This document shows positions 2,846 to 22,263 of a stretch of DNA of 31,625 bases, piece by piece (position 1 is the stretch's first letter; every line of letters starts with the position of its first letter). Source of the DNA: a virus. The stretch lies in IMG/VR virus record IMGVR_UViG_3300046820_000453, positions 1 through 31,625 of that record, one strand, 5' to 3'. The position numbers and the translations under genes were made by a program. The notes beneath the pieces were generated by a model. The model saw only the letters and a list, made by a program, of their open reading frames with translations. It was not told where the DNA came from and searched no databases.

Positions 2846-3925
2846 TTATTTTTCCAAAGCAGTAATAACGTACTTGCCAAAACGATCATGGAACTCGTCA
2901 AAGTTCTTCATTTCAGCAGGGTCAAACGGAAGTTGGAAGTTAGTAAGTGCAGTCTTAGCACCCATAACAACAATCTCTGTTGGGAAATTGTCCATCATAA
3001 ACCGGAAGAAGTTATCTGACTGTTCGTCCCAGTTTTTAACTTTCTTTTCATGACCAAGTTGTAGCTCGTAGCACATTGAAATAGTCAAAGAGTACATAGC
3101 TGACACTTCTTTAACTTTGAGTTCTTTAATTTTGCCTTCAAGAATCTCTGAAGGGTTAGGCATTTGACCAGCAACTTTACGGTGTGCCATAAACTTAACA
3201 GCAAGACCTTCACCAATTGCACCTGCAACGAGGTCAGTTAGTACTGTGTCGCTGAGGTTGTCGTCAAGCAATTCGCTTACAAAGCTCCATGAGCGTGGGG
3301 TTGCAAATGCACGGCTAGCTGACTTTGGATCAAAGTCGTACAAGTCGTTCTTAGCAAAGTTTAGGTAACCAACGACGTCCTTGTGAACCTTGTTGCCAGT
3401 AGCCCAAGTGTTCCAGTCGTCAAAGTCAACACGCAGTTCCAAGTGAACAAAACGGTTAGCCAACGGAGCAGGCATACGATATGTAACACCTTTATCAGTT
3501 TCACGGTTACCAGCGGCAACAATACTAACACCATCAGGAAGTTTGTAAGTACCAACACGACGATTAAGAATAAGCTGATAAGCCGCAGCCTGAACAGATG
3601 GGGGAGCCGCATTAAGTTCGTCTAGGAAAAGGATAGCATTGCTATCTTTATTGTGCGGAAGTTCTGCTGGAGGAGCCCAGCTCATTGTATTTTCGGTTGC
3701 GTTGTAGTAAGGGATACCTTTAATGTCAGTTGGTTCCCAAAGTGGAAGTCGAACGTCAATTACTTCACGACTTTGTTCTTCAGCAATTTGCTTTACAATG
3801 TCTGACTTGCCAATACCAGGAGCACCCCACATAAAAATTGGACGCTTCTTGCTAATTGCATGACGAATAGAATTTTTAGCATCGTTAGGAGTAACGGTAC
3901 GATTCGCGCTCATTTTTTCTGCCAT
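2846..3925 (-). CDS. MoxR/CobS-type AAA+ ATPase
   Basis: A 359-residue AAA+ ATPase with Walker A GAPGIGKS (34-41) and Walker B ILFLDEL (about 98-104), followed by sensor-1 (VAAGNRE) and arginine-finger regions. The NAAPPSVQAAAYQLILNRRVG stretch and the lid are typical of the MoxR/CobS group. T4-like cyanophages carry a related gene annotated as cobS, although cobalt chelation in phages is unproven. Its likely partner is the downstream HExxH/VWA protein, as in MoxR-VWA and CobS-CobT pairs. The start at 3925 has AAAGG seven bases upstream; MSANR four codons later is an alternative. It has its own promoter and terminator. Confidence 0.85.
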   Translation of the reverse strand: MAEKMSANRTVTPNDAKNSIRHAISKKRPIFMWGAPGIGKSDIVKQIAEEQSREVIDVRLPLWEPTDIKGIPYYNATENTMSWAPPAELPHNKDSNAILFLDELNAAPPSVQAAAYQLILNRRVGTYKLPDGVSIVAAGNRETDKGVTYRMPAPLANRFVHLELRVDFDDWNTWATGNKVHKDVVGYLNFAKNDLYDFDPKSASRAFATPRSWSFVSELLDDNLSDTVLTDLVAGAIGEGLAVKFMAHRKVAGQMPNPSEILEGKIKELKVKEVSAMYSLTISMCYELQLGHEKKVKNWDEQSDNFFRFMMDNFPTEIVVMGAKTALTNFQLPFDPAEMKNFDEFHDRFGKYVITALEK

Positions 3926-4000: not shown

Positions 4001-4392
4001 GCGTTTTTTTGTTTTTTCTGTTTAGTTCTGTCCTTAGCTTTACCAAATTTGGTCAAATCACCGTCAAAAAGTATCAATTGAAGAGCACATTTCTCTCCAG
4101 TTAACATAATACTTTTATTGGTCAAATAGTAAGGACAATCGATGTATCGATCTAAATCGATAATCATTTTGTTAGTAATTACTAACCCCATTGGAAAAGT
4201 AATTTCGTAAAATTTAATTTCAGCTTTGTTTGTGAAATAATCGTAACCAGAGTCAGTTAATCGAAATCTTCTATCCTCAGTGTTGCGCCAATTAGTCCAC
4301 CATGCTTTGTATAACATGGATATGTATTTGGGATCACTGTTATAGTGTTCGTCTTTTTCGGCTAATTTTTTAGTTATCTCTAGTTTGTTCAT
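3997..4392 (-). CDS. Hypothetical phage protein, 131 aa
   Basis: A basic protein of unknown function. It has helices in residues 1-45 and a segment rich in aromatic residues and Asp (RRFRLTDSGYDYFTNKAEIK) suggestive of a small alpha/beta domain. It ends in a strongly basic Lys/Gln tail (KQKKQKNA). The ATG at 4392 is preferred over the TTG one codon earlier because GAGAGG lies six bases before it. Its beginning overlaps the end of the 100-residue upstream gene by about 20 bases, so the two are probably translationally coupled. Confidence 0.65.
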   Translation of the reverse strand: MNKLEITKKLAEKDEHYNSDPKYISMLYKAWWTNWRNTEDRRFRLTDSGYDYFTNKAEIKFYEITFPMGLVITNKMIIDLDRYIDCPYYLTNKSIMLTGEKCALQLILFDGDLTKFGKAKDRTKQKKQKNA

Positions 4393-4672
4393 CAACTACC
4401 TCTCCGGTAGTAAGTTTATAAACTTGAAATTCACTAGTATTAAAAACCTTGTTAAGTTTCTTAGCCAAGTTATGGGCATGACCTGGATTAGAAAATGAAA
4501 CTTTTTTATATTTAGGACCAGGATAACTGGCAACAAGGCTGCTGGTTTTTAGGTTAACTGGTTTTCCCTGATAGAAAACCGCCCAGATAGCTTCACTGTC
4601 GAGAACTTGCTCAACTTTGAAAGTTTTTTTATTAGCGATTTCTAATAGTACTTTTGGTTTTGGTCTGCTCAT
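4370..4672 (-). CDS. Hypothetical phage protein, 100 aa
   Basis: A 100-residue basic protein without recognised family. Residues 10-55 look like a beta-rich module (KTFKVEQVLDSEAIWAVFYQ), followed by a helix around NPGHAHNLAKKLNKVF that could hold a nucleic-acid or sugar-phosphate ligand (guess). The start ATG at 4672 has AAGG about 10 bases upstream, but that site lies in the loop of a 7-bp inverted repeat (4676-4700), which may limit ribosome access. The stop overlaps the next gene. Confidence 0.65.
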   Translation of the reverse strand: MSRPKPKVLLEIANKKTFKVEQVLDSEAIWAVFYQGKPVNLKTSSLVASYPGPKYKKVSFSNPGHAHNLAKKLNKVFNTSEFQVYKLTTGEVVDEQTRDN

Positions 4673-4675
4673 TAT

Positions 4676-4700
4676 CTACGTACCTTGTTAATATACGTAG
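4676..4700 (-). promoter_or_regulatory. Inverted repeat enclosing the ribosome binding site
   Basis: A perfect 7-bp inverted repeat (CTACGTA / TACGTAG) with an 11-base loop ends three bases before the ATG at 4672. On the minus strand the loop carries AAGG, the gene's only Shine-Dalgarno match. A hairpin here could modulate initiation or bind a regulator. Chance occurrence in AT-rich DNA cannot be excluded. Confidence 0.4.
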
Positions 4701-4708
4701 TTTATTTA

Positions 4709-4933
4709 TTAAAATGAGCCGCCATCCATTTGTACCGAAGTTACCGTTTCTTGTGGTTCAGTAGTATTAGCACGTTCTAAGTTACCAACTGCTCTAGATA
4801 ACACAATAGTAAGTGTTTCTACCAATAATTGGGCTTCTTTTATGTCTAAAGTGACTGATTTTTGATTAGATTTACGTGCCGCAAACACTTTATTTGCGAA
4901 GTCTTCTATTAAGTAGCTGTTAAGTTCTTTCAC
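4709..4933 (-). CDS. Hypothetical phage protein, 74 aa, GTG start
   Basis: A small helical protein (helices about 3-20 and 28-55) with a polar tail. It starts with GTG at 4933, supported by AAAGG seven bases upstream, and overlaps the end of the 156-residue gene by 14 bases. Its N-terminus (MKELNSYLIED) incidentally resembles the capsid-targeting peptides of region A, but the gene sits among early-type genes. Function unknown. Confidence 0.6.
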   Translation of the reverse strand: MKELNSYLIEDFANKVFAARKSNQKSVTLDIKEAQLLVETLTIVLSRAVGNLERANTTEPQETVTSVQMDGGSF

Positions 4934-5390
4934 GGTGTGCCTTTGCTAGTTCAATTCTTACTTCTGCATCAGTATGAAACGGGCCTTTAAAAGGATATCT
5001 CTCCAAAGTAATAAGTTTTGGGCAATGACTTTTTACCCATCCTTTGGGAAACTTAATAATATAATGACCGGCACAATGTTTACTAATGCTTTTTGCGCTT
5101 TTTGTATAAATTGGTAGTTTACGTTTTACATCATACAATGGGTTATGAGGTATAGTCTTAGTTTCATAACCATAAACATCTTTATTTTTTGATGATTTAA
5201 GTGATGATGGAGGTTCAACATAAATCTCCATTGCTTCTTGTACTTCATTTAGATTATGAAACTGTATTTTAGTTCCCTTACCAAAGAATACATAACCTGT
5301 TTTTTCTTTACTTAGTGTTCCTAACTTACGACCATTATCTTCTACGATCCATTCTTTATTAGGGATAAGCGGTTTTGCAATGCCTGACAT
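4920..5390 (-). CDS. Conserved phage protein of unknown function, 156 aa
   Basis: A basic 156-residue protein. The N-terminal half contains an EDNGRKLGTLSKEKTGYVFF segment. The C-terminal half has a Cys/His-bearing region (KHCAGHYIIKFPKGWVKSHC) followed by PKLITLERYPFKGPF; one or two Cys/His could coordinate a metal (inference). Proteins with the same CAG.Y.IKF..GWV...CPKLITLERYPF pattern are common in T4-like marine phages (from memory) and have no assigned role. The ATG at 5390 follows AGGAA at normal distance, nine bases after the exonuclease stop. Confidence 0.75.
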   Translation of the reverse strand: MSGIAKPLIPNKEWIVEDNGRKLGTLSKEKTGYVFFGKGTKIQFHNLNEVQEAMEIYVEPPSSLKSSKNKDVYGYETKTIPHNPLYDVKRKLPIYTKSAKSISKHCAGHYIIKFPKGWVKSHCPKLITLERYPFKGPFHTDAEVRIELAKAHRERT

Positions 5391-5399
5391 ATGGGTTCC

Positions 5400-6404
5400 T
5401 TAAGCTTCTGCTTTTTCTTGAATTGGATATCTTGCGTTAAATGGTTCAACATATTGTTGAATATTGTCGCTAATCTTATTCAGTTCGTAACTAGCACAGA
5501 ATTTTAACATTCTAACGCCAACTTGTGATACGTCTTTATTCTTTTGTACTTCCAAATTAATAGTATCTTCAATTATTTTGCGAATCTCTGGAGGCTGTGC
5601 AGTTAAATCACATAACAGTTTATTTCTATTGTAGTCTTCTAGTACACGATGTTCGACACCTTCGTGATCAATCCATTTCTGAAGCATGAGATTGTTCCAC
5701 GCATAGCCTTTGGAAGTACGGTCTTCAAATGCTTCTAATAATCCTACTTTGTTCTTTGTACCTTTTGTACGAACACCTGGATATGCTGAGAAGATATTAT
5801 CACTTGTATCGCCACGCATACATTTCTCAAACAATAACCATTCTGGATTAGGTGCTAATTTAATCTCATTTGTCTTTTTATCAATTACACGTTTGCCCTT
5901 TGCATCAAAATAACCAGTGTGCCGTGTAGTAACTTCACTTACACCATTATATTGACAGACATTTGGTGCAATTAATTGTGCGAAATCGCCATCTGTTGAA
6001 ATAATAACATGGTTATCATTTGGATGTGCTTGGATAAAGCCTGCGATCAAATCATCTGCTTCTAGTTGTGGATGCTGTAATACTGTGCAGTTTGTTTTAT
6101 CATTGATGAAATTTTTAAATTCATCATATGTCTCCCAAAATACTTTTTCTTCTTCAGCTTCTTTGTCATTGTGTGCGGCACGAGCATCTGCACGATTTCT
6201 TTTATAAGGAGCATAGTGATCCTTACGCCAGCTTCTACCTTCTAAACAGAAGATGACATGACTACCTTCGAAATCTTTCCATGCTTTTTTAACACTATTA
6301 AATGTTACATGGAGGCTCATGCCAATCTTCATTTCAAGATCGCCTTTAACAGCGTGTCTTGCACGAAAAAATGTGTTTGCGGTATCTACTAGAATAAATG
6401 ACAT
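5400..6404 (-). CDS. rnh: 5'-3' exonuclease (RNase H/flap nuclease type)
   Basis: A 334-residue member of the 5'-3' exonuclease/FEN family, to which T4 RNase H and the Pol I N-terminal domain belong. It would remove RNA primers and flaps from lagging-strand fragments. Visible motifs are an N-terminal metal-binding Asp (VDTANTFFRA, D7), the basic arch segment YAPYKRNRADAR, the acidic pair in LEADDLIAGF, STDGDFAQL, and the helix-hairpin-helix entry RGDTSDNIFSAYPGVRTKG. Length is close to T4 RNase H (about 305). The start at 6404 overlaps the previous stop as TAATG, with GGAAG upstream. The symbol is by analogy with T4 rnh. Confidence 0.85.
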   Translation of the reverse strand: MSFILVDTANTFFRARHAVKGDLEMKIGMSLHVTFNSVKKAWKDFEGSHVIFCLEGRSWRKDHYAPYKRNRADARAAHNDKEAEEEKVFWETYDEFKNFINDKTNCTVLQHPQLEADDLIAGFIQAHPNDNHVIISTDGDFAQLIAPNVCQYNGVSEVTTRHTGYFDAKGKRVIDKKTNEIKLAPNPEWLLFEKCMRGDTSDNIFSAYPGVRTKGTKNKVGLLEAFEDRTSKGYAWNNLMLQKWIDHEGVEHRVLEDYNRNKLLCDLTAQPPEIRKIIEDTINLEVQKNKDVSQVGVRMLKFCASYELNKISDNIQQYVEPFNARYPIQEKAEA

Positions 6405-6835
6405 TAACTTACTTCCGATTTTCCGTTGCCTAAATTGTTGATATTAATATAACCACTGCCTCTTCGATCCATATCCATACCTGCTTCGTTTCCTATGTTT
6501 CTACATAGGGTTTGAAACCAAGTATCAACTATACTTTCTTCAGTAGGACCGTCATAACCATGACTCTTTAATTGTACTATAAAATACTCGTTCCAGTCAA
6601 GTTCAAAAAATCCGTTAGAAGGATTGTCAGGATTGACGTGTGTTTCTAATACGCCAACCCAAGGTTCCTTATTATAAGTTGCTTGTTCTTTTGGACTATC
6701 AAATTTCTTTTTAGCCCTAGTTTTTGGTGCAACTTCTTTAACTTCTGGCTTTTTAGTTACTTTTTTAGCCGGAGTTTTTACACCAGTTGACTTTTTAACT
6801 GTAGTTTTTGTTTCAGTTGTTTTTCTTGCTACCAT
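6404..6835 (-). CDS. Phage protein with histone-like Lys-rich N-terminus
   Basis: A 143-residue protein. Residues 1-45 are a low-complexity Lys/Thr/Ala/Pro tail like that of histone H1 or HU-tail proteins, likely disordered and able to bind DNA (inference). Residues 50-143 form a conserved domain with WVGVLETHVNPDNP, a FFELDWNEYFI stretch, and the signature MDMDRRGSGYININNLGNG. Similar domains occur in T4-like marine phages next to replication genes (from memory); the role is unknown. It is packed between queE and the exonuclease, with a one-base overlap with the exonuclease. Confidence 0.7.
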   Translation of the reverse strand: MVARKTTETKTTVKKSTGVKTPAKKVTKKPEVKEVAPKTRAKKKFDSPKEQATYNKEPWVGVLETHVNPDNPSNGFFELDWNEYFIVQLKSHGYDGPTEESIVDTWFQTLCRNIGNEAGMDMDRRGSGYININNLGNGKSEVS

Positions 6836-7684
6836 TTAAGTACCCCATTCATTTTTAAATAACGGAACTTGCAGTCTGTCACTGTATCTAAAACCATGTT
6901 TCATTGCTAGTTCTGCTACACGACGATTGTTTAGTGTGTAAACACTTTCAACTCCACCTACTGGCATTAGATAAATTGGACCACGGAATCCGTTTTCACG
7001 ATAAATGTCAACTGTTTCCAATGCTTCTTCTGCATCTTCTTCAGTTGCAATTACAAACTTGAGATATGTATAACCAATTTCTTCATATTCGCAAACAACC
7101 TCAGGAAGAATTGCTTCATGTCTTTCTTCTCCTGAACAACTTAGCTTGGCACTTACACTAAATGTAACTTCACGCTGTGGGTCTTGGTTGACCCAGTGTT
7201 GTAAAAAGTTGTGTAAGTCGCCTGTTAGGCGCTGAGTTCCATTTGTTTCAAATGTAATCTCTTTTAGGTTACGCATATTTGGGTGTATTAGTAAGTCTTC
7301 GTATGCACGTTGCCAACCTAGTAGCGGCTCGCCACCTGTAATAACCAAGTGTTCATCTGCCCAAGAACCATAAGGAAGTATTTCCATAATGCGTTCAACG
7401 ATGGCATCACTTTCTAGCATTGGACTAAGATCTTTGAATCTTGGATCCCAACTTGCGTAACTGTCACAGCCTGTACTAACAAGTGGCAGTTCTTCATAGG
7501 ATTTAAATTCTCCAACTCTTGCGGCAATGGCTTCAACTTCTTTGCTTAGTTCACCTTTGGGCATACCAAAGCCAGCACATTTAAAGTTACAGCCAAATGT
7601 ACGTAAGAAAACAGAAGGAACACCCATATAGCGTCCTTCACCTTGTATGCTGTAAAACAGCTCTGCGATTTTAATTTTACTCAT
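6836..7684 (-). CDS. queE: 7-carboxy-7-deazaguanine synthase (QueE), variant radical SAM motif
   Basis: A 282-residue radical-SAM enzyme converting 6-carboxytetrahydropterin to 7-carboxy-7-deazaguanine. Family signatures are the N-terminal EIFYSIQGEG-type segment (here ELFYSIQGEGRYMGVPSVFL), GCN at the first cysteine (C32), CDS with the third cysteine (C73), and TGGEP (116-120). The iron-sulfur ligands are unusually spaced: C32, C36, then C73, a CX3CX36C pattern with an insertion between second and third cysteines. It has no leader: the ATG is essentially at the predicted transcription start. It belongs with folE, queD and dpdA in a DNA-modification pathway. Confidence 0.88.
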   Translation of the reverse strand: MSKIKIAELFYSIQGEGRYMGVPSVFLRTFGCNFKCAGFGMPKGELSKEVEAIAARVGEFKSYEELPLVSTGCDSYASWDPRFKDLSPMLESDAIVERIMEILPYGSWADEHLVITGGEPLLGWQRAYEDLLIHPNMRNLKEITFETNGTQRLTGDLHNFLQHWVNQDPQREVTFSVSAKLSCSGEERHEAILPEVVCEYEEIGYTYLKFVIATEEDAEEALETVDIYRENGFRGPIYLMPVGGVESVYTLNNRRVAELAMKHGFRYSDRLQVPLFKNEWGT

Positions 7685-7690
7685 ATTAAT

Positions 7691-7719
7691 ATTATATTAT
7701 AAAAAATTATAAAAGTCAA
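7691..7719 (-). promoter_or_regulatory. Sigma70-type promoter directly abutting queE
   Basis: TTGACT (7719-7714) and TATAAT (7696-7691) are separated by 17 bases. The start codon begins at 7684, seven bases after the -10 box, where transcription should begin. No Shine-Dalgarno site is present between box and ATG, so the promoter would make a leaderless queE mRNA. The -35 box overlaps the end of the upstream 69-residue gene. Confidence 0.75.
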
Positions 7720-7925
7720 ATTCTATCTGAAAGTAAAATTTGACACAACCTTTGGTCTTTCTCTGATTCAAATTCAAAAATCATATGATCCGTAAACGGT
7801 CTGTACATGAATCTATTACCAGGTAAACCAAATACTTCAAGAACCATAGCACATGTTTCATTCCACCAAATATTACCTTGACCAGTATGCCAATTTATTT
7901 TTACTTGATGTTTGAATGTTTTCAT
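7716..7925 (-). CDS. Small conserved phage protein, 69 aa
   Basis: A 69-residue protein with several aromatic residues (WHTGQGNIWWNETCAMVLEV) and a central FGLPGNRF motif followed by an FEF...K....L terminus. Comparable short proteins with a WNE.CA....FGLPG.R core are found in T4-like marine phages (from memory), with no known function. It starts in an ATGA overlap with the carboxypeptidase stop. Confidence 0.65.
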   Translation of the reverse strand: MKTFKHQVKINWHTGQGNIWWNETCAMVLEVFGLPGNRFMYRPFTDHMIFEFESEKDQRLCQILLSDRI

Positions 7926-8686
7926 ATCTTTTGTAAAATATCTTTTGTAATTTCTGCTCTATGATTAGAATTCTTTGCACCTAATACTACTACAATATAT
8001 TTTTGATCATTTTTCTCAACTGTTATTGCAAGACAAAATCCAGCGGCATAAGTGAAACCAGTTTTACTTGCAGTGATATTATCAAATTCATTAAGTAGTT
8101 TTCTATTTGTATTTTCCAAAGTAATAATTTTAGTTCTATTACTTTTTGGTATTTCGAACGACGCTTCTTTCCTAGCACTGTTGTTAGTAATAAAATTATA
8201 TTTAGAAGCATTGGACATCATAATACCAACATCATCTACTGTAGAAATATTTCCTTTGTTTAATCCTGTTGGATCAACAAATACAGTATGTTTCATTCCT
8301 AAATTTTTAGCTTTAGTGTTCATTGCTTTAATAAACATTTTCCTACCACCTGGGTAACTTTCAGCTAATGTCTCTGCCGCACCATTATCACTTCTAACCA
8401 ACATTGCAGTTAATAATTCCTTTTTAGTATATAACTTCTTAGGAAGTTTACTGCTTTCTTTGTCTGACATATAATATGTGGCGTCCAAATATGTTTTATA
8501 ATCTAAAGCTACCATAGCTGTCATTAATTTTGTTAGACTAGCAATAGGTCTTTGATCATAATTTCTAGCTATTATTTGATATGCTTCTGTGTCATTATAC
8601 AAAAGAATAGACGGCTCTTTGCTTTTCTTTGCAAAAACGGATATTGGGGATAACAGTAAAATAACTGTTAAAAACAAAATACGCAT
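7922..8686 (-). CDS. Secreted D-alanyl-D-alanine carboxypeptidase (S11 family)
   Basis: A 254-residue serine D,D-carboxypeptidase of the PBP5/DacA family (peptidase S11). All three active-site motifs are intact: SLTK (50-53), SDN (99-101) and KTG (208-210). The N-terminus is a signal peptide (basic MR, hydrophobic core, cleavage probably after VFA at residue 19), so it should act in the periplasm, trimming the terminal D-Ala from stem peptides. It lacks the C-terminal beta domain and membrane anchor of host PBP5 enzymes (about 400 residues). No clear ribosome binding site precedes it. Possible roles are altering peptidoglycan during infection, lysis or exclusion (inference). Confidence 0.85.
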   Translation of the reverse strand: MRILFLTVILLLSPISVFAKKSKEPSILLYNDTEAYQIIARNYDQRPIASLTKLMTAMVALDYKTYLDATYYMSDKESSKLPKKLYTKKELLTAMLVRSDNGAAETLAESYPGGRKMFIKAMNTKAKNLGMKHTVFVDPTGLNKGNISTVDDVGIMMSNASKYNFITNNSARKEASFEIPKSNRTKIITLENTNRKLLNEFDNITASKTGFTYAAGFCLAITVEKNDQKYIVVVLGAKNSNHRAEITKDILQKI

Positions 8687-8704
8687 TAAATTTAGATATT
8701 TGGT

Positions 8705-8905
8705 TTATGATTTTCTAACAGACGTGCAACTGTCATTCCAGATTTCTTGAGCATGTTTTTGATATTCCTCAAGATCCCAATCTCGTTTAGCTTTAGCAAG
8801 CTCTTCTTCATTTAGACCATGCCAACCAATACACTTGCCTGTGGGACTACGACCGCATCCACAGTTACCAAATTCTTCTTTGTTTTCTTTAACTCTTACT
8901 TGCAT
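8705..8905 (-). CDS. Small CDGSH-like iron-sulfur protein candidate
   Basis: A 66-residue protein with a Cys/His cluster C15-x-C17-x7-C25-x3-H29 within CGCGRSPTGKCIGWHG. This closely resembles the 2Fe-2S ligand pattern of CDGSH (mitoNEET-type) proteins, C-x-C-x8-C-x3-H, but is one residue shorter and has IGW instead of DG(S/A). The rest is a charged helix (about 31-60). It may bind an Fe-S cluster or zinc. GGAAA nine bases before the ATG supports the start, and it overlaps the end of the HIT gene. Confidence 0.6.
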   Translation of the reverse strand: MQVRVKENKEEFGNCGCGRSPTGKCIGWHGLNEEELAKAKRDWDLEEYQKHAQEIWNDSCTSVRKS

Positions 8906-9284
8906 TTTTATAATTTCCTTTTTCTGGTATTACGTGTCTAACACCGCCTGTAGGATCTTCCATATCACCAGTACGACGAGGGATAAGATGCACATGTGGC
9001 CAGCCAACTGTTTGACCTGCAGATTTTCCGTAATTGAAACCTACGTTAAATCCATCACATTCTCCAGCCTCAACCATTTTCATACCATCACGAACTGCAC
9101 TTTCAAATGCGTCCATTAATACTGCAACTGTATTATATTTAGGCACAAACAACAAGTGACCATCAGTTACTGGATACTTATCGTAAAAAACTTTTACGTG
9201 AAAATCCTCTTCTAGCAAGTTATCCCAAGGAGCTTCACTGTCCTCAATAAAAGGAGGCTGATTCAACATTACATTTTCACGCAT
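8889..9284 (-). CDS. HIT-family nucleotide hydrolase/transferase
   Basis: About 131 residues. The HIT signature reads GQTVGWPHVHLIPRR with the catalytic His pair at 97 and 99; the first histidine of the classic HxHxH is replaced by Trp, a form I recall in other bacterial and phage HIT proteins. A C-terminal MEDPTGGVRHVIP segment is also typical. HIT proteins hydrolyse nucleotide phosphoramidates, dinucleoside polyphosphates or sulfates. I prefer the start MRENVML at 9284, with GGTGGA upstream and an eight-base overlap with the phosphoribosyltransferase stop, over an earlier in-frame ATG at 9305 that lacks a binding site. Confidence 0.8.
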   Translation of the reverse strand: MRENVMLNQPPFIEDSEAPWDNLLEEDFHVKVFYDKYPVTDGHLLFVPKYNTVAVLMDAFESAVRDGMKMVEAGECDGFNVGFNYGKSAGQTVGWPHVHLIPRRTGDMEDPTGGVRHVIPEKGNYKNASKS

Positions 9285-9837
9285 TTTTAGTCCACCATTC
9301 TTCATAAGGAAATTCTATCCAAACATCATTTTCTGCTTTATTAACTTCCATACCAGTGTAATCCATTTTTACATTACACTTACTGGACAAGTTATCAACA
9401 ATAACAGCAAATCTTACATTGTTGTTCCAAACATTATTCCATGCTTCGTCAGATGGCAAACATCCGCTAGGCCAATCATTTAACAACCAATTAAAAGTAG
9501 CACCGCTATCATTAATGTCGTCAACTATAAGAATATTTTTCTTATAAGTTGCATCACTTCTTTTGTCGATGCCTTTTTGCATTTCCATAGGAATGTATCC
9601 AAATGCTTCTTCTGCCATCCACAAGTTGCTTTCTGGACCGTTATCACTGTCACGTAAACTTATTTTTAAAGTTTCACATCTAACATCAAAGTAGTGACTG
9701 ATCATAACTGCTGGTAGTAGACCACCACGAGTTATGCCTACAATATAATCTGGACGCCAGTTACTTGCAGTAATGTCTCTGCAAATTTTAGCAACTAGCC
9801 CTTTAAATTGATTATTATCAATTATGAGCTTGTTCAT
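9277..9837 (-). CDS. Phosphoribosyltransferase-like protein (PRT type I fold)
   Basis: A 186-residue protein with the type I phosphoribosyltransferase signature: hydrophobic strand, two acidic residues and a glycine turn in NILIVDDINDSGATF (101-115), plus the upstream PPi loop region IVGITRGGLLPA (32-43). Members bind PRPP and salvage purine or pyrimidine bases. The substrate hood differs from hypoxanthine and orotate enzymes, so the base is unknown; given the neighbouring 7-deazaguanine genes, a modified base is conceivable (inference). AAAGGA precedes the ATG inside the end of the cupin gene. Confidence 0.8.
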   Translation of the reverse strand: MNKLIIDNNQFKGLVAKICRDITASNWRPDYIVGITRGGLLPAVMISHYFDVRCETLKISLRDSDNGPESNLWMAEEAFGYIPMEMQKGIDKRSDATYKKNILIVDDINDSGATFNWLLNDWPSGCLPSDEAWNNVWNNNVRFAVIVDNLSSKCNVKMDYTGMEVNKAENDVWIEFPYEEWWTKNA

Positions 9838-10294
9838 ATTTTTCCTTTAAATATTGATCATTTTGGATCCAGTTATTCTTAACTAGAAATCCCCATTCTC
9901 TTTTTTGTGGACCTGGCATGAACAACGTCCAAGGAGTAACATCAGGTTTTAACTCAATCCTGTGGTAACTGTATGCACTACAAATACGGAAGTGACCTGG
10001 ACCACGCCAGTGTTTTTCTTCACCAATCATCTTACCCTTGCCGTCAAATAGCGGAGTCCATTCGTAGTATCCGCCTTTAAGGATTAGTGTAGCGTAAGGC
10101 CATGGATGATCATGAACATCACCTGGATCTCCTTTATGAAATTTATGTAAGAACACATTAAAAGGAAATGTTTTTCGATCCTTTAAGAAAAGATAATAGC
10201 GTGTTAAAAGTGGCTCGTCACAAGTACGGTCCATAATAACACGCTTACGATCATGTCGTTCTAAAAAGTTAAGGAATCGTTCGGTGAGCCTCAT
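9818..10294 (-). CDS. Cupin-like phage protein
   Basis: About 158 residues. The core reads like a cupin barrel: a metal-binding GDVHDHPWPYATLILKGGY segment, a later H in YSYHRIEL, and a GFLVKNNWI strand. Cupins of this type may bind Fe or Zn and act as dioxygenases, isomerases or simple ligand binders; no substrate can be named. The start MRLTERF at 10294 has AAGGA nine bases upstream and overlaps the 58-residue gene. An earlier in-frame ATG at 10318 has no binding site. It is followed closely by the phosphoribosyltransferase and HIT genes. Confidence 0.65.
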   Translation of the reverse strand: MRLTERFLNFLERHDRKRVIMDRTCDEPLLTRYYLFLKDRKTFPFNVFLHKFHKGDPGDVHDHPWPYATLILKGGYYEWTPLFDGKGKMIGEEKHWRGPGHFRICSAYSYHRIELKPDVTPWTLFMPGPQKREWGFLVKNNWIQNDQYLKEKYEQAHN

Positions 10295-10445
10295 TGTTGT
10301 CTTCCTTACAAAGTTCATAAACAGTTTTAAATTGTTCCCATGCTTTTTTAAGTGCAGGGAACTCGTTACACATCACTCCCAACTCTACTGCTTTGATGTT
10401 GTACTCTAAATAGTATTTGTGTTGAGTGTCAAAGTCTACGTTCAT
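10269..10445 (-). CDS. Small helical phage protein, 58 aa
   Basis: A 58-residue ORF filling what otherwise looks like a gap between folE and the cupin gene. Its ATG overlaps the folE stop as ATGA, and its 3' end overlaps the start of the cupin gene. The protein (MNVDFDTQHKYYLEYN... ALKKAWEQFKTVYELC) is amphipathic helix-rich and has normal phage composition. Short proteins with an LPALK.AW..F core are common in T4-like marine phages (from memory). Function unknown. Tight packing supports reality. Confidence 0.6.
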   Translation of the reverse strand: MNVDFDTQHKYYLEYNIKAVELGVMCNEFPALKKAWEQFKTVYELCKEDNNEAHRTIP

Positions 10446-11215
10446 CGCGGAGCAAACTCTTGCTGAAGTTTAATATTGTCAAAGAATTCTTTCTTTGCAC
10501 CTGGATCAGTTTTAAATGTACCAGTTAACACTGTAGTTTGCGTTAATGAACTGTGTGCCATAATGCCACGATTCTCACAACATCCATGTGTTGCTTGAAT
10601 ATAAACTGCTACGTTTTCTGAGTTGGTTGCTTTGCTGATTTCCCTAGCAATGTCATTACAAAGTTCCTCCTGGAGAGTACCTCGTCTTGCACACCACTGT
10701 GCGATGCGTGTGTACTTACTGAGTCCGATAAGTTTCTCAGCGGCAATAATGCCAATATAAGCAACGCCAGTAACGGGTTGGTGATGATGGCTACACATAC
10801 TGCGAAGCTCACTACGAACAACCAACATACCTTCGTAACGGTCCTGCGAGTCGTTTGGAAATGCGGTTGCGTCTGGTCCTGGTTCATATCTTCCTGCCAT
10901 TATTTCATTAAAGTACATTTTAGCAAGACGTCTTGCAGTACCTTTACTATTAGGATCGTTTTCACGATCAATGAGTAACCTATCGAGAACAGTTTCAAAA
11001 GCCTCTGTTGCTTCGTCAATTAATCGTTCTTTATCTTGCTCTCTAACATAATCACTAATATTGTCGCCTGCCCAAAAACGTTTACCTTCACGTTTCATTT
11101 TAAAGCGAAGAAAGTCACCTAAGTACTTGCCTTCTTGATAGCCGCCGTCACCTGCCATTGCATCCAAGGCAGTTTCTTCTTCGTCATGGCTTACATATAC
11201 TTTGTTATATACCAA
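10442..11215 (-). CDS. folE: GTP cyclohydrolase I (FolE)
   Basis: A 257-residue tunnelling-fold enzyme converting GTP to 7,8-dihydroneopterin triphosphate, the first step to 7-deazaguanines (and folates). Zinc and active-site motifs are RSMCSHHHQPVTG (C141, H144; the family's CEHH), GLSKYTRIAQWCARRG (164-179), LQEELCNDIA and ATHGCCENRG (H210, C212/C213). Length exceeds the E. coli enzyme (222) because of an N-terminal extension of about 40 residues. It has its own promoter and overlaps the 58-residue gene. With QueD, QueE and DpdA in the window it most likely feeds DNA modification. Confidence 0.88.
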   Translation of the reverse strand: MVYNKVYVSHDEEETALDAMAGDGGYQEGKYLGDFLRFKMKREGKRFWAGDNISDYVREQDKERLIDEATEAFETVLDRLLIDRENDPNSKGTARRLAKMYFNEIMAGRYEPGPDATAFPNDSQDRYEGMLVVRSELRSMCSHHHQPVTGVAYIGIIAAEKLIGLSKYTRIAQWCARRGTLQEELCNDIAREISKATNSENVAVYIQATHGCCENRGIMAHSSLTQTTVLTGTFKTDPGAKKEFFDNIKLQQEFAPR

Positions 11216-11243
11216 TTTTAATTCTCCAATTCAATACAATATA

Positions 11244-11272
11244 ATTGTAACATTATTTAGGATCAAAGTCAA
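11244..11272 (-). promoter_or_regulatory. Sigma70-type promoter for folE
   Basis: TTGACT (11272-11267) and TACAAT (11249-11244) are separated by 17 bases; the -10 box differs from consensus at one position. The -35 box overlaps the end of the 103-residue gene. The leader carries a GGAGA binding site before the folE ATG at 11215. Confidence 0.75.
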
Positions 11273-11580
11273 TTCCTCAAAGATTCCATGGTAATTATTT
11301 TACCAATTTCTTTACCCAAATCTTTGTCATCGGTAATAATATAAAGACCGTTTGTGTGACGATCAGTTCGACGGTCATACTGATTAGTTTCAATAATTGT
11401 ACCACCACTTGCTTTATAAACTTTAAAGTTCATTCCATTAACATCAAATTTGCCACCAATTGATGCAACTGTACCAATACTGTTTCCAGCAAATGGATAT
11501 TTTTCAGCAGTTTTAGTAGGAATGTCTTCTACCATTAATTTTTCAGCACGTTTTAGAATCCATCTGTTTAACCACTTCAT
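11269..11580 (-). CDS. Hypothetical phage protein, 103 aa
   Basis: A 103-residue protein of unknown function. A basic amphipathic N-terminal helix (MKWLNRWILKRAEKLM) might associate with a membrane or another protein (inference). A beta-rich middle follows (YPFAGNSIGTVASIGGKFDV) and a C-terminal helix (DKDLGKEIGKIITMESL). It starts in an ATGA overlap with the glycosyltransferase stop, so the two are probably cotranslated. Confidence 0.65.
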   Translation of the reverse strand: MKWLNRWILKRAEKLMVEDIPTKTAEKYPFAGNSIGTVASIGGKFDVNGMNFKVYKASGGTIIETNQYDRRTDRHTNGLYIITDDKDLGKEIGKIITMESLRN

Positions 11581-12647
11581 TTAATGATCTCCAATAAATT
11601 ATTAGCACTAAAGAAGTTTAGTGTTAAGTCTTGTGCTTGATTACGAATCTTTGATAAGCGCGATTCGTAATTATCCATGTGTTTGATAATTTCCATACAA
11701 AGTTCTTGTCTATATACAGTATATGATTCAAAACTTTCTGTCCATTTGCTAGGATACTTAAATGTATCGTAATACATTTCTGTATAACTTAAACGATCTG
11801 GAACCATAGGAATAGCATCTACAATAGCACCTTCATAGCAAGATATGCCTAGTGTCTCTTGTAGGTTTGCACTAAACACCATCTTTGCTTCACCTAGCAA
11901 GTTATGATATTCATTCTTAGTCAGTTGTTGGTCTTGACAAACAATGAACTCATATTGTGGCAAGTGCTCTTTTAAATCTCTAAAAATTTCAACTTGCTTT
12001 TCAGGGGCGATACGATGTGGGAATAGTATAAGGTCACGCTTCTTCATATTTTTATATTGATTTAGCGTAGAGTCCATATATTCCATTGGCCAACCTGTGC
12101 GTACAAACTTGTTGTCGTGCTGTGTATAGTTTGGACCATACATACCGTCAAACAAATTCTTATCAAACATTTCAATATGAAATTGCGTAGCAAAGTAGTT
12201 GTGATCAAACGCATGGAAATAACTTTTCTCTGCGTGTCTAACCCAAGGCTTGTTACCAACTAAGCGTCCTAAAAAGTCTTGTGGATCATAACTGCCAGCA
12301 TGCCATAAGCCATGTGTAACTACTGGAATATTCAGTAGTTCACTCATGTACTTTAAGTTTATGATACCTGGGTGCCAAGCATCAGTAAAGATAAAGTGAT
12401 CGCCGGCATGAACGGCTCCGTTGCAAAATAAGCGACCCAGTTGCTCGACTTGTGCAGACTTATATATATTGGTACCACCAAAATTAAGGAAAGCACCAGG
12501 AGTAGTGGCTGTAGGAATATCCGTAGGGCCAGATATAATTTGAACATTGTGTCCTGCCTTTCTAAGCAAAAAAGGTACATGGGCCTTCCATTGACCCGTG
12601 TACCTTGTTTCGACAGCTTCTAAATCAACGAGAAAAACGTTCGCCAT
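11577..12647 (-). CDS. Glycosyltransferase, GT4-like (GT-B fold)
   Basis: About 356 residues. The C-terminal half has features of GT-B glycosyltransferases: a strand with FPHRIAPEKQVEIF (donor-site basic residues), FIVCQDQQLT, and an EX7E-type motif ETLGISCYE (E264, E272) followed by IVDAIPMVP. The N-terminal half has the GQWKAHVPFLLRKAGHNV start typical of glycosyltransferase acceptor domains. It could glucosylate DNA bases, as in T-even phages, or cell-surface or virion molecules; the donor is unknown. The start MANVFLVDLE at 12647 is preferred: the longer frame to 12812 runs over the upstream gene. Confidence 0.75.
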   Translation of the reverse strand: MANVFLVDLEAVETRYTGQWKAHVPFLLRKAGHNVQIISGPTDIPTATTPGAFLNFGGTNIYKSAQVEQLGRLFCNGAVHAGDHFIFTDAWHPGIINLKYMSELLNIPVVTHGLWHAGSYDPQDFLGRLVGNKPWVRHAEKSYFHAFDHNYFATQFHIEMFDKNLFDGMYGPNYTQHDNKFVRTGWPMEYMDSTLNQYKNMKKRDLILFPHRIAPEKQVEIFRDLKEHLPQYEFIVCQDQQLTKNEYHNLLGEAKMVFSANLQETLGISCYEGAIVDAIPMVPDRLSYTEMYYDTFKYPSKWTESFESYTVYRQELCMEIIKHMDNYESRLSKIRNQAQDLTLNFFSANNLLEIIK

Positions 12648-12918
12648 TGTTTCTGTTCTCATAGCGAGGTTTGTTGCCTTGGTATGGCTTACGCTCGCCG
12701 TTATTGAATCTAGCGTTGCCATTCCTTCCTTGGAATCGATGACCGCCATTCTTTCGACGTACAAATTCTTTGTACTCTGGGGATTTATAAAGATGAGCTG
12801 GGTTAAACTCAATCAAGTTAAAACGGCAATAGTCTTGCCATGCTTCAAGGTCATCAAAAATTTTGACAACATCGGGACGATTTTCAAAATATTTGTAATC
12901 GTTGTAGTTCTTAGCCAT
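12625..12918 (-). CDS. Conserved phage protein with Arg/Asn/Gly-rich tail
   Basis: A 97-residue protein. Residues 1-50 form a conserved segment (DVVKIFDDLEAWQDYCRF, then FNPAHLY) that I recall from many T4-like cyanophage proteins of unknown function. Residues 55-97 are low complexity, rich in Arg, Asn and Gly (GGHRFQGRNGNARFNNGERK), like an RNA-binding RGG tail. Its end overlaps the glycosyltransferase start by 23 bases. A role in binding nucleic acid is plausible but unproven. Confidence 0.7.
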   Translation of the reverse strand: MAKNYNDYKYFENRPDVVKIFDDLEAWQDYCRFNLIEFNPAHLYKSPEYKEFVRRKNGGHRFQGRNGNARFNNGERKPYQGNKPRYENRNNGERFSR

Positions 12919-12938
12919 GATAGCTTTGCTTCCTTAAA

Positions 12939-13328
12939 TTAATATTTGATAAAAGAACCATTTTCTCCGTCTTCGGAGACCTCAATCCAAATCTCACGAC
13001 CTGGATACTTATTGGAGATAGCGTCAAACAAATCGCCTGACATCATCTCGCAACTCTTGTAGTCTAGTTGTAGTGTACCTTCTTTGTAAAGGTTTTCCAA
13101 CCAGCGTTTAAACTGAATAAACTCAATATCTCTATCATCGTGTGTAACACTGATCCAAACTTTAAAGTGGAAAATGTGACGATGCGGATAGCCTAGGAAA
13201 CTAACATCATATTCATCACCTGTAGCAAGTGCTGGATCTGTCAGTGCGGCTGGATACTTGTGCATACCTTCTTTGCGGAAGGTAACCCAAATCATTTTAT
13301 TAGGGCGAATGTCTTGTTTGATAATCAT
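12939..13328 (-). CDS. queD: QueD-like 6-carboxytetrahydropterin synthase
   Basis: A 129-residue tunnelling-fold protein of the 6-pyruvoyltetrahydropterin synthase/QueD family. Zinc ligands are recognisable: H23 in GMHKYPAA, and H49/H51 in GYPHRHIFHF (the family HGH). The C-terminal RELWIEVSE-type strand (here REIWIEVSEDGENGSF) supplies the substrate-binding Glu. The usual catalytic Cys a few residues before HxH is not seen; Leu45 stands about where it is expected. Its place beside folE, queE and dpdA supports the second step of deazaguanine synthesis. ATGA overlap with the preceding gene. Confidence 0.75.
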   Translation of the reverse strand: MIIKQDIRPNKMIWVTFRKEGMHKYPAALTDPALATGDEYDVSFLGYPHRHIFHFKVWISVTHDDRDIEFIQFKRWLENLYKEGTLQLDYKSCEMMSGDLFDAISNKYPGREIWIEVSEDGENGSFIKY

Positions 13329-13840
13329 GTTGGTGTATCTTGAGTATATTGATCCCAGTAAGTAAATTTATCTTTACTCATTAGGCTTTGGAGATGATGT
13401 GTCCATACACCTGGGTTTGTCTTACCCCAAGTAATGTCATCTAGTTTAAGTGTAGCATTATAGTTAAGTTGATTAATATAAGGTAATTTTACACTAATCA
13501 TAGGAACAAACCTAGGCCATTCGGAGTAACCGCTTTCGATAACTCCTTCAATATGTTCAACACCGAAGTCCAAACTAACCCAGTAGTCATTCTGCAAGCA
13601 AGTACGAATAACATCATCCCACGGAGCATACTCTTCCATGCTAATGCTCTTAGGATTAAAACTTTGGCTAGTACCGAAATAGATATGTGTAACGCCTGTT
13701 TCTTTAGCCTTGTCAAGTATTTCTTGAACCGGAGGAGTACCTACAACAAACAAAGTTTTCATACCATAACAAATGGTATGTTCAACTTCGTATCCTGTAA
13801 AATACACTACGGCTTGGCGTTCTTCTGTATTCAATCCCAT
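13325..13840 (-). CDS. Conserved phage protein next to queD, function unknown
   Basis: A 171-residue protein beginning YFTGYEVEHT after a short lead, then LFVVGTPPVQEILDKAKETGVTHIYFGTSQ and a C-terminal RFVPMISVKLPYINQLNYNATLKLDD segment. I recall homologues beside queD in T4-like marine phages. No catalytic motif is recognisable; alternating strands and helices suggest a TIM-barrel-like or alpha/beta fold (inference). Constant pairing with queD makes a role in deazaguanine handling plausible. AGAGG lies nine bases before the ATG. The gene overlaps both neighbours. Confidence 0.7.
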   Translation of the reverse strand: MGLNTEERQAVVYFTGYEVEHTICYGMKTLFVVGTPPVQEILDKAKETGVTHIYFGTSQSFNPKSISMEEYAPWDDVIRTCLQNDYWVSLDFGVEHIEGVIESGYSEWPRFVPMISVKLPYINQLNYNATLKLDDITWGKTNPGVWTHHLQSLMSKDKFTYWDQYTQDTPT

Positions 13841-14727: not shown

Positions 14728-15605
14728 AGGTTCTCTATCTGTTCGTGAATCCAAGTATCCTGCGCTAACTGATTATCCCAGAATTCGTTATTATTTAGGT
14801 TTTTAATAGCAACTTCAATCATTTTTTTATATGCTTCTTCTGGACACAGTCCTAGCACATGTCTAACGGCAGAACTTTTCATATCAAAAGAAATACTGCT
14901 ATCGTCGTGATCCAAATTAGTTTTCCAGTTAGCACTCAGTACCCAAGTAGTGTTTCCGTTTTTAAACTCAAGTTTACAAAAGTCATCTACATCATAAACA
15001 CCATTAGGATTGATTGTTCCGTAGTCGGTACTAGTGATATCTGATAGCAAGTTATTCTGCCTAGATACTGCATCTATTTTTTGACCTTTTGTAAAGTCTG
15101 TAAGTGTACAGTAGTAACTTAACATATGGGGAATTAAATCTCTACTAACACCGCCGAACGCTAGTTCTTTTGTAGTAAACCAACTTCCCGGATTAGGAAT
15201 CCTATTGGCGTTGTTCCATCGGACGTAGACTTTATCGCTTTGATTGGCTAAACTTTGGAACTCGGATATTTCTTGTCTATACTGATTATTCTTAACCATC
15301 ATAAATCGTGTATTAGGAAAATCAGCAATTAAGTTTTTCCAACTCTGACTATTTAAAACACCTGGCTTTTCGACAAATACTATATCACTGTAGTCAGCAA
15401 CTTTCCTGGCAATGCTTTCGTGTGTGAAATTTGGTGTGCAAATGTTTACAGTATCAAAATGTCCGTGTTTATCAATTGCTTCTTCTACTGTTTTAAAGTC
15501 GGCGTCTTTGATTGGATCTACCGTTATGATAGCAGATCCAATCTTTTCAAACACTGGTCGATAAACAGCATTGCCAAATCCAAGTCCTACAATTAAACTT
15601 TTCAT
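14724..15605 (-). CDS. Gfo/Idh/MocA-family oxidoreductase
   Basis: A 293-residue NAD(P)-dependent oxidoreductase. The N-terminal Rossmann domain has VGLGFGNAVY (6-15), NICTPNFTHE (54-63) and the family hallmark EKPG (79-82). The C-terminal domain has GGVSRDLIPHMLSYY, carrying the Asp/His pair used in catalysis. Family members oxidise sugars, inositols or biliverdin-type substrates. With the MDR dehydrogenase directly downstream and a glycosyltransferase nearby, a sugar-modifying pathway is plausible. The start at 15605 overlaps the DpdA stop by four bases. Confidence 0.8.
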   Translation of the reverse strand: MKSLIVGLGFGNAVYRPVFEKIGSAIITVDPIKDADFKTVEEAIDKHGHFDTVNICTPNFTHESIARKVADYSDIVFVEKPGVLNSQSWKNLIADFPNTRFMMVKNNQYRQEISEFQSLANQSDKVYVRWNNANRIPNPGSWFTTKELAFGGVSRDLIPHMLSYYCTLTDFTKGQKIDAVSRQNNLLSDITSTDYGTINPNGVYDVDDFCKLEFKNGNTTWVLSANWKTNLDHDDSSISFDMKSSAVRHVLGLCPEEAYKKMIEVAIKNLNNNEFWDNQLAQDTWIHEQIENL

Positions 15606-17215
15606 TTAACTTCGCTTTCTAAATCATCTAGTTTGCTAATTTCGTCTTCGGTAAATTCTTCACTGTGCTCTTCAACTTCAGGTGTTGTAGTTTCTTCTTC
15701 AAAGAACTTATTAAAGTTAGTACTAGCATTGATAGTCTTTTTACCAACTGCACCACGAGTACCAATAATACTAGTCCAAAATTTACTGTAATCTTCTACA
15801 ATCTTCTCGGCAGTGCCTCGATCACTAGTTGCAAAGATATCATTAATAACGTCTCTAAATGCTAGTCTATCAAATTTTTCTTGAATCAACATAGCAGGAA
15901 ACTTTCCAGCATCGTATTGTCTGTTGGCTTCTTGAACAGCATTCAAGTGCATCCACACATTATGACCCATCAAGATTGCATAACTAAAACTATCCCAACT
16001 AGTACGGTTACTAACCTTACCTAGTTTGTTCATGTCAGGAGGCACTATCCAATCTGCTAGATTATATGGGTCTGGATTTGCAACACCTGGCTTCGGAGTT
16101 CCTGCACCATAGATACATACATCTTTAATTTGAACACCGTCAATAATTGGACTATTATCAAAGTTTTTAAACCATCCGTCTTGCATAACTGCATCGCGGA
16201 ATAGTCTAGTATCTTGACTATATTTTTTATTATCGATACTAGGTAACATACGATAGACCCATTTAGTTCTATCTTCTGTTTCAGTTTGAACATATACCTG
16301 GCCATTAGCAGTAGCAAGGAATGGACTAGCACAATCAAAACTAATTGTAAAGTTTTCATTATGGTGTTTACGTACAGCACGTTGAATGTCTGTTAGTAAG
16401 CAAGCCCATTCTAATTTACTTGTACCTAGAAAGTGCATCCAGTCTTGTTGACCTTTTTCAAGAAGTCCGTCAAAACGTAATGCCACTAATCTCTTCAGTA
16501 CTAAGTGTACATCGCACATATTCTGACCGCCCATTGACCACCCGTTGAAGGCACGATCTCCGTATTGCTTTGGATCACAATACTTCTTCATACGGTCATA
16601 CCAGTCGTCTGCGTCAGTATGATTCTCACCTTGGAGAACGTTTAAGAACTTGCAGTTACCATTACGATTGTTTACGAACCAGTCGTTATTAATGTAAGTG
16701 CCTTGTACTGCTTCTGCATACGTACTAATGCCTGTTGCTTTTTGTCCGTTAGGACTACGAGCCACCCACGCAGGAATATCAAGAATCATACCATAGTCCA
16801 TTAGACTATCCATCCAAGTCAAAACTTGGCTACGTTTCTTTTGTGCCTTAGGACAGTTAGGATCTTTCCAATCTGCTTCCCACACACCTTTACCAATCTG
16901 GAATCCGCCAGAGTCGCCTAATACCCAACTAGTACTACGATCCCTATTACGGAACATGTCTTCGCTTTCATCTACTTTGTTTAAATCTAAGTTAGCGTGA
17001 CCTGCACTATACAAACAATGGTCGTAGTAAAATGCACCTTTATCAGGTTCAAGGTAGTTAAGGCTTTCGACACCTGACTTAAAACTAGCAGGAATTCTAG
17101 CAGGATCTACATAGTTACCATATCGTTGTTTTCCGATAAAGGTGCTATAGAACCCACTAGTCGCTGGCAAAAAGTATGCGTAGTCGTTTTGTGTTGCTGT
17201 TAAATTTTTATTCAA
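15602..17215 (-). CDS. dpdA: DpdA-like 7-deazaguanine DNA transglycosylase
   Basis: A 537-residue protein of the tRNA-guanine transglycosylase superfamily, phage DpdA branch, expected to exchange guanine in DNA for a 7-deazaguanine. The hallmark VLGDSGGFQIGKG carries the active-site Asp (D101). Further TGT-like elements are LDIPAW (the nucleophile-type Asp), FLNVLQGENH, FNGWSMGG (substrate-binding Gly-Gly) and SFDCASP. The C-terminal 40 residues are acidic and disordered. The start is a TTG at 17215, overlapping the DUF2061 stop, with GGGGT five bases upstream; no ATG is available. It follows clamp and polymerase in the same transcript direction. Confidence 0.85.
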   Translation of the reverse strand: MNKNLTATQNDYAYFLPATSGFYSTFIGKQRYGNYVDPARIPASFKSGVESLNYLEPDKGAFYYDHCLYSAGHANLDLNKVDESEDMFRNRDRSTSWVLGDSGGFQIGKGVWEADWKDPNCPKAQKKRSQVLTWMDSLMDYGMILDIPAWVARSPNGQKATGISTYAEAVQGTYINNDWFVNNRNGNCKFLNVLQGENHTDADDWYDRMKKYCDPKQYGDRAFNGWSMGGQNMCDVHLVLKRLVALRFDGLLEKGQQDWMHFLGTSKLEWACLLTDIQRAVRKHHNENFTISFDCASPFLATANGQVYVQTETEDRTKWVYRMLPSIDNKKYSQDTRLFRDAVMQDGWFKNFDNSPIIDGVQIKDVCIYGAGTPKPGVANPDPYNLADWIVPPDMNKLGKVSNRTSWDSFSYAILMGHNVWMHLNAVQEANRQYDAGKFPAMLIQEKFDRLAFRDVINDIFATSDRGTAEKIVEDYSKFWTSIIGTRGAVGKKTINASTNFNKFFEEETTTPEVEEHSEEFTEDEISKLDDLESEVK

Positions 17216-21446: not shown

Positions 21447-21475
21447 ATTATATAGTATTAGTTGAGCAAGGTCAA
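21447..21475 (-). promoter_or_regulatory. Sigma70-type promoter for dsbA-like/polymerase transcript
   Basis: TTGACC (21475-21470) and TATAAT (21452-21447) are separated by 17 bases. The transcript would begin about 15-20 bases before the AAGGAGA site of the DsbA-like gene, and covers membrane protein and polymerase, for which no nearer promoter is seen. It lies directly after the U-tract of the upstream structured RNA. Confidence 0.8.
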
Positions 21476-21488
21476 CTAAATTTTAGCC

Positions 21489-21508
21489 AAAAAAAAAGTG
21501 CTCACTTT
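21489..21508 (-). terminator. Rho-independent terminator at end of virion block
   Basis: A 5-bp stem AAAGT/ACTTT with tetraloop GAGC is followed by further T residues. The stem alone is weak, but it stacks directly on the GC-rich third hairpin (21540-21509). It ends the transcript of region A just before the next promoter. Confidence 0.6.
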
Positions 21509-21594
21509 CGAGATTCCCGGTAGCGAATCGGGCCGTCTCGCGCCAGCAGCCGGCGCACACTTCCGTTACGAATAACGGGTCCTAAGGTGTGTTC
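21489..21594 (-). ncRNA. GC-rich multi-hairpin structured RNA ending in a terminator
   Basis: This intergenic stretch is much richer in G+C than its surroundings and folds on the minus strand into successive hairpins. First, CCGTTA-TTCG-TAACGG (21578-21563), a UUCG-capped 6-bp stem, is closed by CACAC/GTGTG (21591-21587 with 21560-21556). Second, a GCGCC/GGCGC stem has a 7-nt loop (21556-21540). Third, CGAGA/TCTCG (21540-21536 with 21513-21509) encloses CCCG/CGGG. Last, AAAGT-GAGC-ACTTT is followed by a U-run (nine T in all, 21497-21489). It begins right after the stop of the HExxH gene. I do not recognise any known RNA family. Confidence 0.65.
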
Positions 21595-22263
21595 TTATCG
21601 CTTGTCATCTGGTGAACTGTTTGGCATATGATTTGGACCATAACTAATTCTACTACCTAATATTGTTTCTAGTGCAACATGTAGTGCTGGTCCTGATAGA
21701 TGTTTACGTAACCACTTTTCTGCCAAGTTGTTAATAATCTTTTCATTAGAAGAGATGCGCCCTGCACCTTTAATTTTATCATGCACGTATGCGTGACATG
21801 CTTCATGTACTGCAACTGCAACATCTTTAGCCGCATGGCTATCTAGGTTGGGTATATTGATACTGCCTCCGGGGCCGGACTCTTCTGTATCTCTAAACAT
21901 TGGATCTTCATTACTTTGGTACACATAGTACATGCCTGGTTCCAATTCGTCATCGTCATTAGTAACACGATCTCGTCCTAAGATACTTACAATGGCATCG
22001 TATGCAGACCATAGTGTAGGAGCAGGTGCGCCACCGACTTGTGTAGTAGGAAGCATTGGTTTATCTTCTGGATCAAAGTCTCCCCACCGTTGACGTAATT
22101 CAGCATCACTTGCTTCTGCTTCTTTGATACTTTCGCCAACCCCGCCATCACCACTGTAGCCTGTAGCATAACCGTACCCGCCATAAGGTCCTGGACCATA
22201 GGCCGCCCAGCGAGGCTTCTTTTTACGTTTTCTCTTTTCGGTGATAAATTCTGTTGCTCTCAT
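21595..22263 (-). CDS. Putative packaged HExxH metalloprotease-like protein
   Basis: A 222-residue protein of unknown family. It starts MRATEFITE, a capsid-targeting-like peptide with a hydrophobic-x-Glu site at residue 9. A basic stretch (KRKRKKKPR) and a Gly/Tyr-rich disordered part (20-45) follow. The C-terminal domain contains VAVHEACHAYVH with a HExxH zinc motif (153-157), placed in a long helix as in zincin proteases. A distal third ligand cannot be assigned. If packaged and injected it could cleave host proteins (inference). The start at 22263 overlaps the previous stop as TAATG. It is the last gene before the structured RNA. Confidence 0.65.
   Translation of the reverse strand: MRATEFITEKRKRKKKPRWAAYGPGPYGGYGYATGYSGDGGVGESIKEAEASDAELRQRWGDFDPEDKPMLPTTQVGGAPAPTLWSAYDAIVSILGRDRVTNDDDELEPGMYYVYQSNEDPMFRDTEESGPGGSINIPNLDSHAAKDVAVAVHEACHAYVHDKIKGAGRISSNEKIINNLAEKWLRKHLSGPALHVALETILGSRISYGPNHMPNSSPDDKR

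Follow-up and report, generated by a model that had tools for sequence, protein, structure and literature searches.

The locus and its structured element

The window, which is the whole 31,625-nt stretch of viral DNA that was analysed (positions 1 to 31,625 of IMG/VR record IMGVR_UViG_3300046820_000453), carries a structured RNA of about 95 nt on the same strand as the genes that flank it. The RNA follows the stop codon of the upstream gene and is itself directly followed by a sigma-70-like promoter for the next unit, which holds a gene for a DsbA-like transcription regulator (Table 1). Position and strand, as read from the sequence alone, thus put it within the 3' UTR of a coding gene. The preliminary description had placed a GC-rich element in AT-rich DNA between two transcription units, and both points hold: G+C content is 58% at 21500–21599 against 35–45% in the surroundings, and the promoter lies directly downstream of the element. 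Elsewhere in the window, a 537-aa protein encoded at 15602–17215 (minus strand) has no PHROG or Pfam match; its neighbours presumably resemble QueE and FolE, and the region is possibly devoted to 7-deazaguanine modification.

Table 1. Positions of the structured RNA, its parts and its neighbours in the window
Feature	Position	Strand	Evidence or remark
Upstream gene (22275–21595), stop codon TAA	21595–21597	minus	A few nt 5' of the RNA; relatives spaced similarly
Whole structured RNA, P1/Pa–P2–P3–3' tail, pseudoknotted	21500–21592	minus	Alignment A1 of 69 homologues, covariation
P1 5' arm CACAC	21587–21591	minus	Partner 21560–21556; inspection of variants, e.g. ACAUA/UAUGU, CACCC/GGGUG
R1, near-invariant CCUUAGGACC adjoining P1	21578–21587	minus	Complement of 23S 1921–1930
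Pa hairpin CCGUUA-UUCG-UAACGG	21563–21578	minus	Contains the UUCG loop at 21572–21569
P1 3' arm GUGUG	21556–21560	minus	Sequence inspection
P2 hairpin GCGCC-GGCUGCU-GGCGC	21540–21556	minus	Covariation
Pseudoknot strand 1, GCU of the P2 loop	21548–21550	minus	Pairs with tail AGC
P3 hairpin GAGA[CGG]CCCG-loop-CGGG[AA]UCUC	21510–21539	minus	Covariation
R2, P3 loop AUUCGCUAC	21520–21528	minus	Its UUCGCUAC complements 23S 1930–1937; alternative loop classes exist
Conserved 3' tail AAAGUGAGC	21500–21508	minus	AGC (21502–21500) is pseudoknot strand 2
U9 tract	21489–21497	minus	Read from sequence
Promoter of the next unit (dsbA-like gene), sigma-70-like, TTGACC-17-TATAAT	21447–21475	minus	11/12 matches
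Downstream gene, DsbA-like transcription regulator, 86 aa	21163–21423	minus	phrog_639, E 5e-10; Pfam Phage_DsbA slightly under cut-off

On the gene strand the element forms three hairpins and an outer helix, in agreement with the three or four hairpins first proposed for it, but the stability attributed to them is at the level of chance (-30.9 kcal/mol, z +0.44 against shuffled sequences). The opposite (+) strand folds better than the gene strand (z -2.48). The UUCG tetraloop is present in Pa, but it is closed by an A-U rather than a C-G pair and is not conserved among relatives, and we therefore regard it as an incidental detail of this lineage. A consensus terminator scan of the window did not flag the element, nor did it raise a flag at the U9 tract, which is preceded only by a weak AAAGU-GAGC-ACUUU stem. 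Neither ARAGORN nor Rfam places a tRNA or tmRNA at the element. In the alignments described below, it is comparative evidence and not folding energy that lifts the element above chance.

Covariation and the transcribed strand

Homologues were gathered from IMG/VR contigs, first with 17 bases of hairpin 2 and afterwards with a two-motif pattern; the same element turned up in many contigs at differing positions. In an alignment of 69 diverse homologues, 86.9% of cells are paired in the named structure. The covariation score is 0.574 compared with 0.180 for shuffled alignments, none of 500 shuffles reaches the observed value, and the signal collapses once pairing partners are shifted by one column. 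Both sides have changed in 33, 20 and 24 sequences at the middle three pairs of P2, and in 34, 28 and 23 sequences at the inner pairs of P3. The GCU/AGC pseudoknot is paired in 99% of cells, and two of the three pairs show compensatory changes; longer pseudoknots are seen by inspection in some variants (e.g. L223, L242, L250 and L261). P1 aligns poorly and was left uncounted by the covariation tool, so that it is assigned by inspection only. Across these sequences, P2, P3 and the pseudoknot are thus supported by covariation, and P1 and Pa by inspection. Covariation and conservation in relatives, whose lack the preliminary description had named as part of what would refute it, were both found, and with three hairpins, an outer helix and a pseudoknot, the element is more than the plain terminator that its last hairpin might have formed.

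The strand on which the structure is read can be judged from the wobble pairs. G-U combinations outnumber A-C combinations by 31 to 5 on the gene strand, indicating that selection acts on the RNA of the minus strand. The same polarity follows from compact relatives, in which P3 is an intrinsic terminator in the minus sense. Together these observations exclude an rRNA mimic on the opposite (+) strand, and the freely varying length of the element excludes a coding sequence.

Structural classes and loop modules

R1 contains TAGGACC in 106 of 113 copies and is less variable than the P3 loop; in 126 of 144 copies it is soon followed by a GUU. The P3 loop, which the search pattern left unconstrained, reads AUUCGCUAC in 93 of 138 variants. 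Most of the other loops are truncated or modified versions of this sequence or belong to one of three discrete types: class b (GGGAGUCGUGCCCC; L480, L485, L487), class c (GGCCGGGAAUCC; L085, L099, L102) and class d (UUAACGCCAUUC; L491, L500, L501). Such interchangeable loop classes on an otherwise constant RNA suggest that P3 serves for docking, with tips or targets that can be exchanged. In a compact class (L240, L260 and L277 among others) the RNA is reduced to UUAGGACC, P3 and one small hairpin; here P3 is a perfect intrinsic terminator, and AUUCGCUAC remains constant as its loop on unrelated, fully paired stems.

Comparison with catalogued RNAs

Rfam 15 contains no family that matches the element at the gathering threshold, either in the window or in 15 other loci, as the label 'unrecognised' given to it beforehand predicted, and the strong covariation bears out the 'structured' half of that label. 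The sole gathering-level match among those loci is an unrelated tRNA in L291. Permissive Rfam scans of three elements returned chance-level scores only, and in a scan of the window element against the whole Rfam library the xrRNA covariance models gave no match. A search of the accessible literature by phrase and by sequence found no description of the element, which may still be an unnamed entry in a computational motif catalogue. Judged by fold and sequence, the elements make up a new phage-specific family of pseudoknotted RNAs that matches no catalogued family, Rfam being the catalogue compared.

Several known systems resemble it in part. Like viral xrRNAs, it is a small pseudoknotted RNA within a 3' UTR; compared by sequence and fold alone, it differs from them in belonging to DNA phages and in having no sequence or Rfam match. 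GOLLD, ROOL and OLE are structured RNAs that came from comparative genomics, some of them phage-associated. They span several hundred nt, whereas the phage RNA measures about 100 nt and has no Rfam match, which sets it apart from these ornate RNAs (PMC12286853).

Distribution and copy number

Well over 100 distinct variants occur in IMG/VR phage contigs. A single covariance model matched 34 of 39 long viral contigs (50–356 kb), in 33 of these 34 as a single copy; most of the 39 had been preselected by a motif-pattern match, so that the copy number is informative and the hit rate is not. The one long contig with two matches (G020, the contig of L241) has them at 266,275 and 76,942, and the second is weak (33.7 bits). 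Among 29 further contigs, which are fragments, 27 had no match and the remaining two were marginal. The RNA is also missing near dsbA in many dsbA-bearing relatives, so that some lineages may be able to do without it.

The pattern matched 117 times in bacterial genomes, and a single match, in a Rhodobacteraceae metagenome-assembled genome (MAG), is clearly genuine; nearly all viral matches look genuine. A bacterial small RNA acquired by phages was rejected, since the bacterial matches other than those of the one MAG are due to chance. In the MAG (G066, the genome of L387), the covariance model matches C76 and C105, which are possibly phage contigs binned with the bacterial genome.

A DNA similarity search of 50,697 phage records found no full-length match to the version in the window. 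The covariance model, on the other hand, identifies a copy in the cultured giant Pseudomonas phage PA5oct (MK797984, positions 115,466–115,561; E 7e-6). This copy, at 2966–3085 of locus L599 (about 115,465–115,584 of MK797984), is unannotated and lies directly at the end of EST35_0189, where it is followed by an intrinsic terminator. Nine other cultured relatives have near-identical copies (11 records, two of which are PA5oct itself).

Genomic context

In 131 of 138 cases the RNA and its upstream neighbour share a strand, and the conserved core is separated from the previous gene by a median of 11 nt. The upstream gene typically ends within about 20 nt of this core. The start of the RNA is mostly no more than about 10 nt from the upstream stop codon, and its end often lies right before a new promoter. 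A motif of the T4-late type, [AT]AAATA[CT], occurs 34 times within the first 20 nt downstream, compared with about 1.7 expected (directly 3' of the RNA in L010, L276 and L310, for example), and sigma-70-like promoters are likewise enriched there. Promoter motifs are not enriched upstream of the RNA, which was not found to have its own promoter.

The neighbours themselves change. They belong to at least 64 gene families upstream and at least 68 downstream, and the RNA is therefore tied to no single neighbour; the upstream figure also rules out a cis-regulator of one gene. About 70 contigs have a dsbA gene within 5 kb of the RNA, and 35 have a B-family DNA polymerase gene that close, a proximity that we read as inheritance within one clade.

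The position between stop codon and promoter is what would be expected of a cis-acting 3' end, and this is the main rival explanation of the element: a structured terminator, or a barrier to exonucleases, which would shield the mRNA and insulate the next promoter and have no role in trans. A U-rich run follows 46 of 106 full-type copies (43%) compared with 8% of random 11-mers, and the compact class, with its GC-rich P3 hairpin followed by U's, has the form of an intrinsic (Rho-independent) terminator. The full class departs from that form in its two extra hairpins, pseudoknot and invariant loops, the last of which termination does not need. The U-tract is also absent from over half of full-type copies, so that the U-tract ending noted for the window, although real, is a detail of its lineage, and in PA5oct the terminator is a separate one downstream of the RNA. 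Genomes of 300 kb, in which there must be many transcript ends, still contain a single copy. We consider a purely cis-acting 3' end rather unlikely, and a repeated operon terminator is ruled out by the single copy per genome.

A proposed 3'-UTR-derived RNA that may act in trans

The family, its fold and strand, its single copy, its position after stop codons and its near absence from bacterial chromosomes are established by the comparisons above. The most likely reading of these properties is that the element is a phage-specific, structured noncoding RNA derived from 3' UTRs and acting in trans, and we give this reading about an even chance of being correct. That the RNA is present once per genome and follows genes of at least 64 families speaks for a trans-acting job of its own and not for a terminator that can be reused. 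Of the functions first suggested for the element, a stable small RNA cut from the 3' end of a transcript is favoured by the same single copy per genome and turnover of neighbours.

The RNA would form the 3'-terminal ~100 nt of the transcript from the upstream unit and would fold into P1/Pa, P2 and P3, a fold locked by the pseudoknot that joins the P2 loop to the 3' tail. The knot probably protects the 3' end, and the RNA may then persist, by processing or by its own stability, as a discrete small RNA whose conserved unpaired segments would act in trans. A possible partner is bacterial 23S rRNA at helices 69–71. Bacterial small RNAs derived from 3' UTRs likewise lie downstream of a stop codon, at the 3' end of an mRNA, and sometimes end in a terminator; the phage RNA, known from sequence only, differs from them in being phage-specific and pseudoknotted and in having a large conserved core. 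If it acts in trans, many phages would share an RNA that has a host or phage partner. An antisense to another phage mRNA was rejected, no exact paired complement being present in 4.6 Mb of loci, mostly of phages.

The strict conservation of the loops could also reflect recognition by a phage or host protein instead of base pairing, in which case the RNA would serve as a scaffold, a decoy, or a packaging or replication signal. The discrete alternative P3 loops would fit such a function, being like hairpin tips that dock a partner. The neighbouring genes are not conserved, however, and in one 167-kb contig the RNA is at 91.2 kb whereas the GC-skew and strand switch is near 115 kb, a displacement that led us to reject a replication origin. 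A protein-binding RNA is accordingly an explanation that we consider unlikely.

Complementarity to 23S rRNA

One special case of the trans-acting reading, compatible with it, is an RNA antisense to the ribosome. Two conserved stretches, UUAGGACCG and UUCGCUAC, complement adjoining parts of 23S rRNA (1920–1937; E. coli K-12 numbering, anchored on m5U1939), with a chance probability of ~1e-4. R1 contains CCUUAGGACCG, the exact complement of 1920–1930, and UUCGCUAC in the class-a P3 loop is the complement of the adjacent 1930–1937, so that together they could pair with the region from the 3' strand of helix 69 to helix 71. Letter shuffles reproduce the match with a frequency of 1e-4 within 25 nt, 3e-4 under a looser rule within 15 nt, and 9e-5 when summed over four motifs; nothing comparable is seen in the sense orientation. 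The class-d loop ACGCCAUUC complements 23S 1968–1976. Pairing would capture free or immature 50S subunits and alter host translation.

Several observations weigh against this idea. The 23S match was recognised post hoc, and the 1920–1937 site is structured in mature subunits. Pairing is broken in some R1 variants, and in the PA5oct copy the fold prediction pairs the 5' half of R1 within the RNA. For P3 classes b and c, no preferred match lies near the site; with loop classes that lack a 23S match, ribosome targeting is only a lead. A second match, of the P2 loop to the 530 loop of 16S rRNA, is mostly due to the pseudoknot and is gone in several pseudoknot variants, which break the complementarity, and it was rejected as an antisense interaction. 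We therefore think it improbable that capture of ribosomal subunits explains the element, and hold with similar reserve the more general proposal that a phage small RNA pairs with this near-universal site (helix 69–71, an intersubunit bridge by the decoding centre) and so controls ribosomes in infection. If correct, it would be a new mode of phage translation control.

Carriers of the RNA

The RNA family is widespread, nearly restricted to phages and missing from Rfam. Because PA5oct-type phages carry it, and several of them have been recorded as growing on Pseudomonas aeruginosa PAO1, it can be tested at the bench. Many carriers are rich in tRNA genes, with 24–40 apiece, and comparable numbers occur in some phages that have no match to the model. 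One RNA-bearing contig of 167 kb (G015) has 37 tRNA genes at 4251–13787 of locus L581.
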